From NCBI RefSeq assembly GCF_007752935.1, contig NZ_CP036319.1, positions 5,560,501-5,624,500 on the forward strand: DNA of 64,000 bases. The letters run 5' to 3'. Origin of the DNA: Crateriforma conspicua. GTDB taxonomy: Bacteria > Planctomycetota > Planctomycetia > Pirellulales > Pirellulaceae. Positions within the stretch are counted from its first letter, which is position 1. The number at the start of each line of letters is the position of its first letter. Position numbers and translations under genes: made by a program. Of the stretch, positions 28,896 through 35,527 are shown one piece after another. The notes under the pieces were generated by a model, which made no database searches, was not told the DNA's origin, and worked only from the letters and a program-made list of their open reading frames with translations.

Positions 28896-31706
28896 TTATC
28901 GCAGCAGCGACAAAACGTTTTGCGGGTTTTGGTTGGCCATCGCCAACACGTTGGTGCCCGATTGGACCAGGATTTGAGCCCGGGTCAGTTGGGCGGACTC
29001 TTCGGCGAAATCGGCGTCGCGGATCGAGCTTTCGGCTTCCTGCAAGTTGGCCTTCGTTTCGTTCAGGCTGACCATGTTGCTGTCCAGCGTCGTTGCCTGG
29101 AACGCACCCAATCGGCCGCGAAGTCCGGTGACCTTGTTGATGACTTCGTCGATCACTTCGGTCGCACCGCTGATGTCGTTGGTCAGACTCTTCGCTTGGC
29201 CGCTAGCCAGTTCGTACAGTCGACCGCTGGCACCACCGAGCTGACCGGTGCTGACGCTGCCGATGCCCAAGCTGGCTCGTTGCGTGCTGGTGACTTCCGG
29301 TCCCAATTGGAACGTCGCACCGCCACCGGTGATGTCAAAGCTGATGTCGCTGCTGACGCCTTCTTCGACCGTCATGGTCAAGTCCAACGTGCTGGTGTTG
29401 ATCGACAAAGTGTTGCCGGATGCGTTGGCCGCGATTCCGTTGACCGTTGCCGACAGGTCGGTACCGGTGGCACGTTCGGCGGACAGGCCGCTCTTGAACG
29501 TTCCGCCTTCGCCTTCGCTGATGACTTCGACATCGATCAGCGAATCCGAACCGTACGAGGTGCTGGTCAGCTTCAACGAACCGCCGTCGTCTTCGGCTTG
29601 AATGCCGGTCGCGTCGGCAACCAAGTTGATCGACTGGATCACGTCGTCCAGCGAAGCTCCCTTGTCGAACTGGAAGACCTCGGCACCCAGCGAACCGGTC
29701 AACTGAACCACCAAGTCGGCGTTCAGTCCACCGCCGAACACACCGCCGGACAGGTCGGTCGTGGTCGCCGCGGTGTCATTGTCGATGTCATAGCTGCCGT
29801 CACCATCGGTCGCGGTGACTTCGGCACTGAAGCCTTCCAAATCATCGATGGCGGCGGAAATCGTTCCGACATTGACCGCACCGTTGCTGCTGACCGCGAC
29901 GACGATGTTGCCGTCGTCATCCAGCGATGCCTGAGCTTCACCGGCGGCCAGCGAGTTGTCCGCGTTCAGTGTGATCGTCACGCCGTCGCTATCGGCACTG
30001 GCTTCATCCGCCGTGACCGTGATCACGTCGTCGGCCGTCGCGTCGGTACCACCGGTCAGGCTGGGGTCGTTCGCACCCAGATCCGCCGTAGCGAACAGAG
30101 CCGTGCCGTTTTGCACGTTCTTGGTGATGAACGTGCCTTCGTTGTCGATCGCGGCGGCAATGTCGGCCGTCGTCGCACCGTCGGCCACCGTGATGTTGAT
30201 CACGTCGTTATCGGCGTCGTAAACCGCTTCGGTCGTGTCACCGCTGGTCAGGTTCAACGTCACACCGTTGCCCGCGGTGCCGTCGGCGTCACCGCCGTTG
30301 ACCGCTTCGATGTCGAATGACGATGCCAACGTCGGGTCGGTGCCGCTGGCCAGTTGAGCCGTCAGCGGGCTGCCGATCGCCGTGTTGTCGGCAGCGTCGT
30401 AGGCGTAGTCGCCGTTGACCGTGTTCGATGCGATGAAATCGTCACCGACGTCATTGTTGATCGCCGCGGCGATGTCGGCGATCGTGTCACCGTCGGCAAC
30501 GGTGATCGTCAGCAAGTCGTTGTCGGCGTCGTAGGCCGCACCGGTCGTCGCACCACTGGTCAACACGATCTCCGTGTCGTTCCCCTTGGCACCGTCGGCC
30601 GCACCACCGTTGACGGCCGTCAGGTCAAAGCCCGTCGTGCCGCTGGTCGTGTTCGAACCGCCGGTCAATTGGCCGGTGTACGTGCCCGCATCGCCCGCGG
30701 CGATCGTACCCGAGGTGCCGCCGTTGGCTGCGACGGTGAAGTTCGGGTCGCCGGTCAGGTCCGTCACGATTGCCGCGGCATCATCGCCTTCGACCAAGGT
30801 CAACGTCAGCGTGTCGCTGTCGGCATCATAGCTGGCCGACGAATCACCGCCGACTTGCGTGACGACTTCGATGATCGTGCTGTCACCCTTCAAACCATCG
30901 GCCAGGCCGCCGTCGACCGCATCGATGTCCAACGTCACGCCGCTGCCCAGCGTCAATGTACCGCCGGCTTCGGCGTTGGGCGTGAACGCATCGTCGAAGT
31001 TGATCGTTCCGGTCGCTTCGGCGCCAACGGTGTAGGAATTGCTGAAGGACGCGGTGCCGGTTGCTTCGGCATCGGCCGACGGTGCACCGAAGCTGATCGT
31101 TCCGGTGGAGTTGGCCGCCGTGGTCGTCGCGGGAATCCCGGTCGACGTAACCGCGGCCTTGGTCGCAGCGGATTGAACTTCAACGTTCACGCTGATCTTG
31201 CCAAGGTTGCCCAAGTTGGCTTGGTCAATTTCCAGGTCTTTCACGTTGGAAAAGCCTGTGCCGGCCTTGGTGTTGAAATCCAGGCTTCCGTCCAGCAACT
31301 TGCGGCCTTGGAAAGTGGTCGTTTGGGCGATCCGATTGATCGCTTCCAGCGAACTGTCGATTTGCAGTTGGTTCGCCTCGATTTCCTCGGACGACAGGGC
31401 ACCACTGTTGGCTGCTTCGACGACTAGGCCGCGGACGTCGTTCAGCAGGCTGCTGACTTGGCCCAAGGCACTGTCAGCGGTGCTGATGATTTGGCTGGCT
31501 CGTTGCGTGTTGCTGATCGCCTTGTTCAAACCAGTGATTTCAGCCCGCAAGGCTTCGCTGGCGATCAAACCGGCCGGATCGTCCGCACCCGTGTTGATAC
31601 GCAAACCGGTCGACAAACGCGTCAGGCGTGTTTGCAGGTCGGCGTTGCTGGATTGAAGTCGGTTTTGGGCGACAAGAGACGAAACGTTGGTGTTGATCCG
31701 TGTCAT
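28896..31706 (-). CDS. Giant flagellin 2, same length as flagellin 1
   Basis: The protein has 936 residues and aligns with flagellin 1 without any net length change (constant offset of 3209 bases). N- and C-terminal D0/D1 helices are flagellin-standard (MTRINTNVSSLVAQNRLQSS; SSIRDADFAEESAQLTRAQIL). The surface insert is almost the same as in flagellin 1: around codons 240-375 only 7 of 420 bases differ by my count, all silent, whereas the first 117 coding bases differ at roughly a quarter of positions. An AGGGGAA ribosome site precedes the ATG. The gene has its own terminator and a likely FliA-type promoter. Whether the two proteins share a filament or are used under different conditions cannot be told. 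Confidence 0.95.
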   Translation of the reverse strand: MTRINTNVSSLVAQNRLQSSNADLQTRLTRLSTGLRINTGADDPAGLIASEALRAEITGLNKAISNTQRASQIISTADSALGQVSSLLNDVRGLVVEAANSGALSSEEIEANQLQIDSSLEAINRIAQTTTFQGRKLLDGSLDFNTKAGTGFSNVKDLEIDQANLGNLGKISVNVEVQSAATKAAVTSTGIPATTTAANSTGTISFGAPSADAEATGTASFSNSYTVGAEATGTINFDDAFTPNAEAGGTLTLGSGVTLDIDAVDGGLADGLKGDSTIIEVVTQVGGDSSASYDADSDTLTLTLVEGDDAAAIVTDLTGDPNFTVAANGGTSGTIAAGDAGTYTGQLTGGSNTTSGTTGFDLTAVNGGAADGAKGNDTEIVLTSGATTGAAYDADNDLLTITVADGDTIADIAAAINNDVGDDFIASNTVNGDYAYDAADNTAIGSPLTAQLASGTDPTLASSFDIEAVNGGDADGTAGNGVTLNLTSGDTTEAVYDADNDVINITVADGATTADIAAAIDNEGTFITKNVQNGTALFATADLGANDPSLTGGTDATADDVITVTADEASADSDGVTITLNADNSLAAGEAQASLDDDGNIVVAVSSNGAVNVGTISAAIDDLEGFSAEVTATDGDGSYDIDNDTAATTTDLSGGVFGGGLNADLVVQLTGSLGAEVFQFDKGASLDDVIQSINLVADATGIQAEDDGGSLKLTSTSYGSDSLIDVEVISEGEGGTFKSGLSAERATGTDLSATVNGIAANASGNTLSINTSTLDLTMTVEEGVSSDISFDITGGGATFQLGPEVTSTQRASLGIGSVSTGQLGGASGRLYELASGQAKSLTNDISGATEVIDEVINKVTGLRGRLGAFQATTLDSNMVSLNETKANLQEAESSIRDADFAEESAQLTRAQILVQSGTNVLAMANQNPQNVLSLLR

Positions 31707-31897: not shown

Positions 31898-32241
31898 GGC
31901 CTACAAAAGCTGGCCAAACTTGAACGAATCGGGCCGGAATCCAGCATCTTCCCTAGAAACGTCACAATCCGCCTTGCCGCTGCCGTTGCCACGTTGGTAC
32001 TTAGCCAGCAACCGGGACGTTTTTCCCGCAAAGCCGCGCCCCACCGGATGCGGCCACCCAAGACGTTTCATCCCCCTTTAGCGACTCATAAACAGCGATT
32101 CCGTCTCGTTCGCGATGCGGCTGTGCAAGGATGCTTGTGGCTAGGCAAACCGACATTTTTCGAGGTGACGCCGGTCCGGTCGGGCAGGAAGGCCCGATCG
32201 GGGTCCGCGCCCGACGCGCCCCCGCGGCGCGTCCGCCGGTC
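31898..32241 (+). other. Divergent intergenic region between flagellin 2 and the Omp85 genes
   Basis: About 340 bases upstream of the POTRA protein start. An open frame extends back from 32242 to an ATG at 32131, but the added 37 residues are Arg/Pro/Ala-rich and precede a clean signal peptide, so I treat them as leader sequence. I see no other gene here. Confidence 0.45.
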
Positions 32242-33672
32242 ATGGCGGCGTCGTGGCTGGGGTTGTTCCTGACCCTGACGATCCTTTCCTGTTTCCCAAC
32301 GCCGGCCAACGGCCAAATGGGCGGAATGGGGGGCGGAATGCCCGGCGCAGGCGGTGGCGCGGGCGCCCCAGGACCACCCCAGCGAGCCAAATTCCGTGAC
32401 GCAATCCACGAAACCGACGGCCTGACCATCGGGCGGGAAGAAGGCGACAAAATCGTCTTGGCCGTCCGCTTGGTGGGCAACCGATCGGTCAGCCCTCACC
32501 TGATCCATCAAAAACTGCAGACCCGAAAAGACCGGTTCTTCGACTACGAAACCGTCCTGGCCGACGTCCATCGTCTGATCGAAATGGGATCCTTTGATGA
32601 TGTGACGTTTGACATCCAAGAAACACCCGCCGACGCGGCCCAGCCCGGCGTGATCGTCACCTTCAAAGTTCGCGAACGTCCGGTCATCACCGAAGTGATC
32701 TTTTTCGGCAACACTCGCATCAATGACCGCGAACTGCGGGGCAGGGCGGGGCTGACCAAGAAAGACCCACTGAACCCCTACGCCATCGAATCGGCCCAAC
32801 GCCGCCTGATCGACTACTATCACGAAGAAGGCTTCAACCGCGTCGCGATCTCCGTGGAATACGGACAACCCGATGCACCGGAGGGCCAACGACTGTCCAG
32901 CGGCGAAGTCGTCTTCCGCATCAACGAAGGCCAAAAAGAACGCATTCGCACCATCCGCATGGTGGGAAACACCATTGTCAGTGGCTCGCGACTAAAAAGC
33001 ATCATCAAAAGCCGTGACGCTCGGTACGGTGCGACGCTGTACGTCGGTAACACCGCCGATCTGCAAAAAATCAATCGTGACGTCGACATCCTGCAGGCCT
33101 ATTACCACAACCTGGGATTCTTGACCGCATCGGTCGGCCGCAGCATCGAGTACGAAGAAAACGGCAAATTCATGTCGGTCACCTTCGACATCCACGAAGG
33201 CCCCCGGTTCCGCATCGGCGACATTCAAATCGTCGGCAATCAATACGTCACCGAAGAATCACTGCGTGCCCGACACGAATTGATCTCCGGTGCAACGTTC
33301 AGTGGCACCAAAATGCAACTGGACATCGGATCGATGATCTACGGCTACGGCGAACTGGGTTTCATCTATGCCGAAGTCGAGCCGAAAACCATCATCCGTG
33401 ACGAAGCCGGCGTGGTCGATCTGGTTTACCAAATCGAAGAAGGCGATCGTTGGCGGATCGGTGAAATTCACGTCAACATCGACGGCGAACCTCACCTGAT
33501 GAAAGAAAGCACCATCCTGAACCTGATGGAACTGCGCGAAGGCGATGTCATCGACCGTCGGAAACTGGAAAGCGACCGTCGTCGTCTGGGAGCCAGCCCA
33601 CTGTTGGAAGCCGACATGAATATCGCCGAACCACCGGACATCAAAGTCGTGCCAAGGCAGGAGCTTCGATGA
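32242..33672 (+). CDS. Omp85 POTRA protein lacking a beta-barrel (split BamA, periplasmic half)
   Basis: The protein has 476 residues. A signal sequence (MAASWLGLFLTLTILSCFPTPANG) is followed by a Gly/Met/Pro linker and five consecutive POTRA domains at about 71-147, 148-234, 235-325, 326-405 and 406-470. Each begins with a strand like IRTIRMVGNTIVSG or IGDIQIVGNQYVTEE and contains the helix-turn motif (YYHEEGF, YYHNLGF, YGELGF). Five POTRAs is the BamA number, but the protein ends at the last POTRA; the barrel is encoded by the next gene. The ATG at 32242 matches the signal peptide start. ILSC could also act as a lipobox. The stop overlaps the barrel gene start as ATGA. Confidence 0.88.
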   Translation: MAASWLGLFLTLTILSCFPTPANGQMGGMGGGMPGAGGGAGAPGPPQRAKFRDAIHETDGLTIGREEGDKIVLAVRLVGNRSVSPHLIHQKLQTRKDRFFDYETVLADVHRLIEMGSFDDVTFDIQETPADAAQPGVIVTFKVRERPVITEVIFFGNTRINDRELRGRAGLTKKDPLNPYAIESAQRRLIDYYHEEGFNRVAISVEYGQPDAPEGQRLSSGEVVFRINEGQKERIRTIRMVGNTIVSGSRLKSIIKSRDARYGATLYVGNTADLQKINRDVDILQAYYHNLGFLTASVGRSIEYEENGKFMSVTFDIHEGPRFRIGDIQIVGNQYVTEESLRARHELISGATFSGTKMQLDIGSMIYGYGELGFIYAEVEPKTIIRDEAGVVDLVYQIEEGDRWRIGEIHVNIDGEPHLMKESTILNLMELREGDVIDRRKLESDRRRLGASPLLEADMNIAEPPDIKVVPRQELR

Positions 33673-35330
33673 ACACCATGGAACGTTTCTGCATGAACAA
33701 CACGCACGGTGAACCTGCGAAGACCGCCGACCGAACCGGTCGCTGGGCCAAGACGCTGATGATCGGCGGACTGATCGCGCTGACCGGCTGTAACCAATTC
33801 GGCCCCAACCCCGGTTCCGGATCATCATTGTCGATGGGCGCCGGACCGCCGGTCACCGGACCAAGTTTGCAAACCGCCACGCCGTCGATCGCTCAGGCTT
33901 CGGCCACCAGCGGCGCTACGGCCGGTGCCCCGGCGACCGCCGACGGATCGGTGATCCAAGCTTCGTCTCCGAATCCCGGCACCACCGCCATTCCCGCTTC
34001 AACGGTGATCCCCGCATCGGCCACCACGCCGACCACTGGACAAACCGGCCATGCCGGTAACGTCGACAGCGGCGTGGGCTTTGGCCAACCCCAACCTTAT
34101 GTCTCGCGACAATACCCGACGACACCCGGTGCCGTCCCTGTTCCCGCACCGATGCCGGGCAACACGGTCGACACATACGGTTCGCCGTTCGGTTCCCCGA
34201 TGGGCGGCGATGTGCTGAACGCGCCACCGCCGGCACCCATGATGCCGCCCATTCGTGACGCCGATCTGATCGTCAACGGATACCCCGCCCGAACCGGCCG
34301 GATCATGTTTGGCGGTGCCGTCAACAGCGACGCCGGCGTCACCGGTCAAATCACGATCGACGAACGCAACTTTGACATCACTCGTTTTCCAACGTCCTGG
34401 TCCGACCTGATCGGCGGAACGGCGTTTCGCGGTGCCGGTCAAACCCTGCGGATCGAAGCGGTCCCCGGCAGCCAATTCCAACGCTACACCGCATCGTTCG
34501 GTGACCCCAATCTGTTCGGCTACCTGCCCATCAGCATGAACGTCAGCGGCTTCTTGTACGACCGACGGTTCGACGACTGGGACGAAGAACGCTTGGGCGG
34601 TCGCCTGAGTTTTGGCTATCGCATCACGCCCGACCTTTCGATCAGTCTGGGCATCAGCGGACAAAACGTCGACGTCACCAACCCGCGTGTCTTGGGGATT
34701 CCCCAACTGGACAACGCCCTGGGTGACAACGAACTGTACAGCGGACAAATCGCTCTGGTCCACGACACACGTGACAGCCCGATCCAAGCCGGCGAAGGCC
34801 ACTACTTCGAATTCAGTTTCGAAGAAGTCTTTGGCGATTACGATTATTCCCGATTCGAAACGGAGTTCCGCCAGTACTGGTTGCTGGCGCAACGTGCCGA
34901 CGGATCCGGCCGCCAAACGCTGTCGTATTCGACTCAAATCGGAATCAGCGGCGAAGAAACACCGATCTTTGAAAACTTCTTCGCCGGTGGTTACGCGACC
35001 ATGCGTGGTTTTGACTTCCGTGGTGCCAGCCCGTCGATCGCCGGTGTGGAAGTCGGGGGTCGATTCCAATGGCTCAACGCCATCGAATACATGTTCCCGA
35101 TCACCGCGGACGATGCGTTCCGTGGCGTCGCCTTTGTCGACTTCGGAACCGTCGAACAAGATATCGAAATCAACAAAGACAACTTCCGGGTCGCTCCCGG
35201 GGTCGGTCTGCGAGTGGCCATCCCGATGATGGGGCCCGCGCCGCTGGCGTTCGACTTCGCCTTTCCGGTCGCCAAAGCGGACACCGACGACGAGCGCACG
35301 TTCAGCTTCTACATGAGCCTGATCCGATAA
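33669..35330 (+). CDS. Omp85 beta-barrel protein with lipoprotein signal (split BamA, barrel half)
   Basis: The protein has 553 residues. An N-terminal hydrophobic stretch ends in the lipobox LTGC (Cys41), followed by about 150 residues of Ala/Pro/Thr/Gly low complexity. From about residue 200 the sequence shows alternating amphipathic strands typical of an outer-membrane barrel, ending in FSFYMSLIR. The Omp85 lid-lock motif is present as FFAGGYATMRGF (Arg near 446), matching the conserved GG...RGF of BamA loop 6. No POTRA domain is present. Start and upstream stop overlap (ATGA), so both halves should be made together and presumably assemble into a BamA-like outer-membrane protein insertase; this is inference. 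Confidence 0.85.
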   Translation: MNTMERFCMNNTHGEPAKTADRTGRWAKTLMIGGLIALTGCNQFGPNPGSGSSLSMGAGPPVTGPSLQTATPSIAQASATSGATAGAPATADGSVIQASSPNPGTTAIPASTVIPASATTPTTGQTGHAGNVDSGVGFGQPQPYVSRQYPTTPGAVPVPAPMPGNTVDTYGSPFGSPMGGDVLNAPPPAPMMPPIRDADLIVNGYPARTGRIMFGGAVNSDAGVTGQITIDERNFDITRFPTSWSDLIGGTAFRGAGQTLRIEAVPGSQFQRYTASFGDPNLFGYLPISMNVSGFLYDRRFDDWDEERLGGRLSFGYRITPDLSISLGISGQNVDVTNPRVLGIPQLDNALGDNELYSGQIALVHDTRDSPIQAGEGHYFEFSFEEVFGDYDYSRFETEFRQYWLLAQRADGSGRQTLSYSTQIGISGEETPIFENFFAGGYATMRGFDFRGASPSIAGVEVGGRFQWLNAIEYMFPITADDAFRGVAFVDFGTVEQDIEINKDNFRVAPGVGLRVAIPMMGPAPLAFDFAFPVAKADTDDERTFSFYMSLIR

Positions 35331-35500: not shown

Positions 35501-35527
35501 CGCAACTTTCCTGTCGGGAAAGTTGCG
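35501..35527 (+). repeat. Perfect 11-bp stem-loop upstream of the PHP hydrolase gene
   Basis: CGCAACTTTCC and GGAAAGTTGCG flank the loop TGTCG. It ends 56 bases before the start codon of the PHP gene, placing it in the promoter or leader. It could be an operator, an RNA hairpin, or a terminator for the gene before. Nothing else is visible in this gap. Confidence 0.5.

Follow-up and report, generated by a model that had tools for sequence, protein, structure and literature searches.

Lipidated Omp85 proteins are described from Bacteroidetes as TamL or Omp85 lipoproteins, in which the lipid lies ahead of three POTRAs carried on the same chain (PMC4104836). Earlier genome work assigned one BamA accession per genome, including those of R. 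baltica, B. marina and P. staleyi; its main text contains neither the word POTRA nor the word split (PMC3422733). In the donor-strand complementation of chaperone-usher pili, a strand from one protein completes the fold of another. We found no split BamA in the open-access literature searched (including PMC8871954, PMC8567305, PMC1586193, PMC13067283 and PMC4104836); subscription papers or preprints could hold a description. The locus analysed here consists of two overlapping genes, A and B, that divide POTRAs and barrel between them. Most probably the pair is the BamA of its genome encoded as two subunits, insertase activity being inferred.

Gene anatomy and uniqueness of the pair

The window, by which we mean the whole 64,000-nucleotide stretch analysed, covers bases 5560501–5624500 of a 7.18 Mb, single-contig genome of Pirellulaceae type that is 99.74% complete. 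Its relevant features are as follows, in window positions.

32242..33672, + strand: gene A, exported POTRA subunit (signal peptide, Gly-rich stretch, POTRA1–4 and POTRA5 through its second strand)
33472..33645, + strand: part of POTRA5 on gene A, b1-a1-a2-b2 (PF07244 positions 6–68 of 79)
33669..33672, + strand: ATGA overlap, stop of A and start of B (from ORF positions)
33669..35330, + strand: gene B, exported and probably lipidated barrel subunit of 553 aa (ORF and profile matches)
33780..33791, + strand: lipobox LTGC, its Cys being B residue 41 at nt 33789 (motif only)
33792..34250, + strand: low-complexity Pro/Ala/Thr/Gly-rich linker (equivalent stretch modelled as disordered in relatives L121 and L076)
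34251..34286, + strand: proposed missing last strand of POTRA5, IRDADLIVNGYP, abutting barrel strand 1 (counterparts at residues 610–620 in L121 and 576–587 in L076)
34287..35327, + strand: Omp85 barrel with loop-6 AGGYATMRGF (PF01103; the model of relative L076, rather than the window protein, gave the count of 16 strands)

The frame of gene A is open already from an ATG at 32131 (ORF 32131–33672). Position 32242 is the likelier start but is weakly supported: against the congener L067, dN/dS is 1.2 over the 37 upstream codons, with few changes, and 0.063 over the first 63 codons after it. Gene A contains five PF07244 stretches (whole-protein E 8.2e-53), aligns to positions 2–367 of the BamA model TIGR03303 and ends in ...PDIKVVPRQELR before its stop codon. 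Gene B covers positions 2–322 of 325 in PF01103 (E 1.6e-47) and 395–738 of 741 in TIGR03303. Its N terminus is a hydrophobic stretch with LTGC at its end, followed by the low-complexity linker, and 154 residues separate the lipobox Cys from the strand preceding the barrel. The loop-6 motif GG...RGF is found in B, the R and G being invariant across 38 aligned barrels. The overlapping reading frames and the loop-6 motif had been claimed in an earlier note on this DNA, and both held; its claim that B has its own export signal, with a lipobox and a linker of about 150 residues, held at the level of motifs. Relative to the same congener, dN/dS is 0.055 for the POTRA part of A, 0.18 for the signal and linker of B and 0.012 for the barrel part of B. 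Both genes thus look constrained, as judged from this single comparison.

A whole-genome search with PF01103 returned gene B and no second match (E up to 0.001), and one with PF07244 returned five matches, all inside gene A, with none beyond it (E up to 1). When a fused relative, L121 (966 aa), was the query, only A (query 51–438) and B (query 546–964) were recovered, with no further match genome-wide (E up to 1). As criteria for BamA we took five PF07244-type POTRA stretches, a 16-strand Omp85 barrel with RGF, status as the only Omp85 found in the genome, and POTRAs and barrel on one polypeptide. The first three are met, the fifth POTRA stretch being partial and the strand number coming from the L076 model, and the last is not, there being two ORFs. 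Neither gene taken alone reaches the TIGR03303 equivalog cut-off of 297.15 bits, which is set for the whole protein (A, 203.2; B, 143.2). The two-gene anatomy and uniqueness in the genome are shown from the sequence, as is the conservation documented below.

Could the pair instead be a secondary Omp85 of TamA or TamL type, with the true BamA elsewhere or unrecognised? In favour are weak matches to the NCBIfam TamL and TamA models and the lipobox that B often carries, as TamL-type proteins do. Neither test was met, however: the TamL model NF052279, with its cut-off at 400 bits, scored 45.1 and 20, and the TamA model NF047950 scored 45.5 bits (gene B) where 625 is required. Moreover, TIGR03303 is the top NCBIfam match for both genes, there are five POTRA stretches rather than three, and a near-complete single-contig genome (99.74%) offers no other Omp85 or POTRA match. 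We regard this explanation as very unlikely. The earlier note had proposed looking for a second full-length BamA, which together with absence of the pair from relatives would have refuted a genuine split. None was found in the genome, the split is conserved in relatives, and the refuting condition is not met. It had also argued that, if this were the only BamA, assembly in trans would be required; the pair is the sole BamA-like locus found, and assembly in trans is still an inference, without expression or biochemical data and without a two-chain model.

Two other components of outer-membrane assembly were sought. LptD gave no match in this genome with PF04453, a result of little weight since the model detects only 2 of 14 control genomes. 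A stand-alone BamD was considered and rejected, the PF13525 matches sitting in frames of 1134 and 596 aa.

The split in Pirellulaceae and beyond

The family surveyed, identified by its named records (Rhodopirellula, Rubripirellula, Stieleria, Blastopirellula and Pirellula) as Pirellulaceae, has a barrel match in 190 of 199 genomes, spread over 65 of 68 genera (189 above the family cut-off). A POTRA profile constructed for this analysis likewise matched 190. Seven of the nine genomes without a barrel match and eight of the nine without a POTRA match are less than 90% complete; G336 (96% complete) lacks both halves and G464 (98%) lacks the barrel. The tables kept the best 150 rows for each half, and 128 genomes appear in both. 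In 125 of these the two genes share a contig and strand, A being upstream of B and in a frame of its own, with a gap between profile matches of 564–1315 bases (median 887); in the other three the halves are on different contigs. A frame fusing A and B occurs in none of these 128 genomes. Named loci, the best 80 kept of 523 relatives found and so favouring the closest, comprise 74 split pairs, five barrels truncated by a contig end and one fused gene (L212). As far as sampled, the split is therefore a clade character of Pirellulaceae, shown at the level of gene anatomy. Some family genomes also have a second PF01103 match.

The frame of B relative to A (0, 1 or 2) is distributed 5, 12 and 8 among 25 fetched family loci and 20, 22 and 32 among the 74 named split loci. 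This variation within the family argues against programmed frameshifting there. A sequencing error, a pseudogene or a programmed frameshift, with a fused protein really being made, would find support in the four-base overlap, which resembles that at some frameshift sites, and in the constant frame relation of 2 in 10 of 10 split loci of other families. Against it stand the varying frame relation in the family, the hydrophobic signal-like stretch that B has of its own and the low dN/dS on both sides of the junction; the explanation is very improbable. Since the split is shared by the family while its frame relation varies, sequencing error in particular is very unlikely. The earlier view that the split is genuine is hence supported.

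Lipidation of B was judged by a simple motif-plus-hydrophobicity rule, applied to sets of loci that overlap in species. It accepted a lipobox in 21 of the 25 family loci that were fetched, in 59 of the 74 named ones and, among split loci of other families, in 7 of 10. All 109 B proteins have a hydrophobic stretch of 12 residues (mean 1.46 or higher) in their N-terminal part. Of 22 B proteins without an accepted lipobox, 20 show by eye a site resembling that of signal peptidase I at the end of the stretch; L097 and L203 have a Cys that the rule did not accept. Lipidation, inferred from the motif alone, is thus probably usual in B and not a defining feature. Because the lipobox, though frequent, is not found in every B protein (59 of 74 named loci), a lipid tether cannot be the conserved essence of the arrangement, and the suggestion that the barrel half is tethered by lipid held only in part.

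Outside the family, most barrels listed in a phylum survey of 294 genomes occupy frames at least about 690 aa long, with shorter ones in G030 (566), G193 (618) and G264 (586). In a survey of 146 genomes of the order, most other families have frames of about 830–1500 aa. Shorter barrel frames were seen in families f70, f71, f72 and f75 (one, one and two genomes for the last three) and in genome G535 of f2; G596 of f2 has a frame of 408, and some short frames in this survey end at a contig edge. We classified 65 loci as 35 split, 27 fused and three undetermined. Fused loci L087–L094 and L113 extend to the upstream edge of the locus, and L090 and L107 are one and the same gene. Splits in family f69 were considered and set aside, the short barrels L105 and L106 merely reaching a contig end, and these loci were left undetermined. 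Most sampled sister families have retained one fused protein.

On a tree of 54 concatenated POTRA and barrel rows, the split label requires four changes, and well-supported branches force at least three of them; the 25 rows from the family group together as a clade (100/100). The barrel-only tree, with 63 barrels, gives seven changes, at least four forced, with the family clade again recovered (100/99); it overstates the number of changes, the undetermined L098, L105 and L106 having been scored as not split. A single origin of the split is not supported, since the 54-row tree forces at least three changes. With the root drawn at the midpoint, the trees show more than one change of the split or fused state within the order, through further splits or through re-fusion.

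The likely position of the cut within POTRA5

The earlier note had all five POTRAs ending within the first gene. This held in part: POTRA1–4 and most of POTRA5 are on A, and the last strand of POTRA5 is apparently on B. The fifth PF07244 match in gene A stops at position 68 of 79. Outside the class, POTRA5 joins the barrel directly in 22 of 30 displayed loci (for example ...SYFEEDIRIETEPTENGEETDIVIDVTEKPTGEFNFG in L009); the other eight are three without a hit, three unplaced by our script and two same-class loci that carry the insert. In members of the order, split or fused, the initial portion of POTRA5 stops well upstream of a comparable strand that stands immediately ahead of the barrel. 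This strand is present in both kinds (PFDIYVDETQTGRFMLG in L121, DADLIVNGYPARTGRIMFG in the window) and its sequence varies, as in L110 and L122.

AlphaFold2 models of two relatives were read against the strand order of POTRA domains, including E. coli POTRA5, which is general background. In fused L121 (mean pLDDT 79, pTM 0.66), POTRA5 comprises a strand at 375–385, helices at 393–397 and 410–422, a strand at 437–439 and a later strand at 610–620. Residues 451–599 are disordered, pLDDT is 95 over 611–620, and barrel strand 1 follows at 624–633. In L076, a natural split pair, A and B share a frame and are separated by a single TAA; reading that stop as Q gave one chain of 933 aa (mean pLDDT 80, pTM 0.67). 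Here the POTRA5 elements are a strand at 322–333, helices at 339–346 and 357–369 and a strand at 384–387, with A ending at 397. Residues 403–566 are disordered, and a strand of B at 576–587 (IRDVPVDVYVQE, in a block of pLDDT 92–94) completes POTRA5, the first of 16 barrel strands starting at 591. In each model the second POTRA5 strand has only 3–4 residues. The best Foldseek matches of both models in the PDB are BamA chains of BAM structures, with a TM-score by query of about 0.5, the domains being set at other angles.

These models come with caveats. Each is a single chain that contains the linker, and the alignments include fused relatives, which biases the prediction toward BamA-like packing. 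Strand pairing was deduced from the DSSP assignment and the order of strands rather than from coordinates, and the models are of relatives, not of the window pair. The insert in fused relatives and the point at which homology to POTRA5 breaks off are shown by the sequences. Homology and the models of relatives nonetheless make it likely that the cut separates strands two and three of POTRA5.

Two other readings were dropped. A POTRA5 completed on A by the segment after the motif RGQSP (VLDINLHTF in L121) was rejected, these residues, 485–493, lying within the disordered 451–599 with pLDDT below 50. BAM-hinge entries in the PDB were not retained as a POTRA5–barrel hinge, the hinge being placed at POTRA2–POTRA3 in a review (PMC13067283).

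Of 107 A tails, 40 have RGQSP itself after POTRA5 and 46 a looser form, the latter arising 0.45 times per 107 in shuffled tails. In the N-terminal parts of B, looser forms occur in 62 of 107 (shuffled, 3.75) and the strict form in 15. The looser form is present in both genes of 41 pairs and in neither gene of 40. As a control, the remaining frames of these loci (487,899 aa) contain RGQSP three times and the looser form 50 times. Among fused loci surveyed in full, 13 of 18 contain RGQSP somewhere, not always inside the insert, and the window's congener L067 has neither form. The motif may be a docking site; this is only a possibility, and there are no binding data.

Proposed assembly and comparison with known systems

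We propose that the ancestral BamA carried a long disordered insert within POTRA5, between strands two and three; such an insert is still seen in fused members of the class. The gene would have broken within it in Pirellulaceae and, apparently as separate events, in some sister families, and the downstream half would have acquired a signal peptide of its own, usually of lipoprotein type. Subunit A (POTRA1–4 and b1-a1-a2-b2 of POTRA5) and subunit B (b3 of POTRA5 and the barrel) would be exported separately, POTRA5 re-forming from the two in the periplasm through strand complementation. Being covalently linked to barrel strand 1, b3 would still couple the POTRA arm to the gate, and the lipid, where present, may fasten the linker of B to a membrane. 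A two-subunit BamA whose halves are locked by strand complementation, the barrel half often being lipidated, is to us the probable reading from homology and models. The meeting of the chains, lipidation, translational coupling and insertase activity are all inferred.

A competing explanation is that the halves act apart, B as a POTRA-less insertase working alone and A as an undocked, chaperone-like periplasmic protein. The 'noNterm' group consists of Omp85 barrels without N-terminal domains, and the Sam50 of mitochondria reportedly functions without its POTRA (PMC4104836); the structural evidence for docking, moreover, consists of one-chain models only. Against this, B retains the POTRA5-like pre-barrel strand, in split and fused proteins alike, for which no use is evident unless POTRA5 is completed, and A and B remain adjacent (125 of 128) and are both constrained. 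We consider separate action unlikely. A bolder version of docking would make the POTRA5 completed in trans a reversible joint, with a detachable and exchangeable POTRA arm and with the docking of A on the strand of B switching the barrel gate between resting and working states. This too is doubtful, although it is not excluded.

We thus return to the locked two-subunit BamA. In the sampled family there is no encoded covalent link between POTRA1–4 and the barrel, and the strand joining POTRA5 to the barrel stays on the barrel. Should A and B assemble in trans, the POTRA arm has been uncoupled naturally, and the need for covalent POTRA–barrel coupling becomes directly testable. The pair also offers two points of access to outer-membrane assembly in planctomycetes.

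Compared with known systems, the pair resembles BamA in its five POTRAs, Omp85 barrel and RGF loop and in being the sole Omp85 of its genome, but differs in consisting of two polypeptides with two export signals, in its cut POTRA5 and in a barrel subunit that often has a lipobox. The fused BamA of related Planctomycetia families (L121, L115 and L111) has the same domains and a long insert at the same point of POTRA5, but is one polypeptide without a second signal peptide. With TamL and the Omp85 lipoproteins of Bacteroidetes the pair shares a lipidated Omp85 protein, as predicted here, whereas its lipobox lies ahead of a linker, one strand and the barrel, the POTRAs being on a separate chain. 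Like the 'noNterm' Omp85 proteins it has a barrel gene without complete POTRAs; unlike them, its POTRAs are encoded next door and its barrel keeps one POTRA-like strand. Finally, whereas donor-strand complementation completes the fold of one protein with a strand from another, the pair would rejoin two halves of one ancestral domain.

Motif at the subunit junction

A short motif, RGQSP, is conserved in the tails of the POTRA subunit and the linkers of the barrel subunit of relatives' loci (L068–L133 and L134–L213), lying directly after POTRA5 and recurring in the linker, and looser variants, RGQxP and RAQxx, occupy the same two places. Loci bearing the RGQSP-type motif include members of the set L107–L126, in which the two pieces are fused into one polypeptide. 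Its frequency greatly exceeds background; none was found in the window's congener.

Sequences flanking the pair

28896–31706, minus strand: flagellin-like ORF, 936 aa, upstream of the pair
35501–35527: terminator-like hairpin, 12 pairs, downstream of the barrel gene

The ORF, likened to flagellin by eye without a family search, carries a long repetitive insert. The hairpin count for the region is 6, near that of shuffled sequence (5.3, s.d. 2.5).

Further barrels and assembly components

One genome of family f72 (G500; contamination, 6%) holds two different split pairs (L101 and L102). Some Pirellulaceae genomes, for example G299, G305, G308 and G356, have a second, uncharacterized match to PF01103, the Omp85 barrel profile. 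BamD-type PF13525 matches in C. conspicua are confined to frames of 1,134 and 596 aa. Searching this genome with the LptD profile PF04453, which matches only 2 of 14 control genomes, gave no match, whereas LptD has been reported for R. baltica (PMC3422733).
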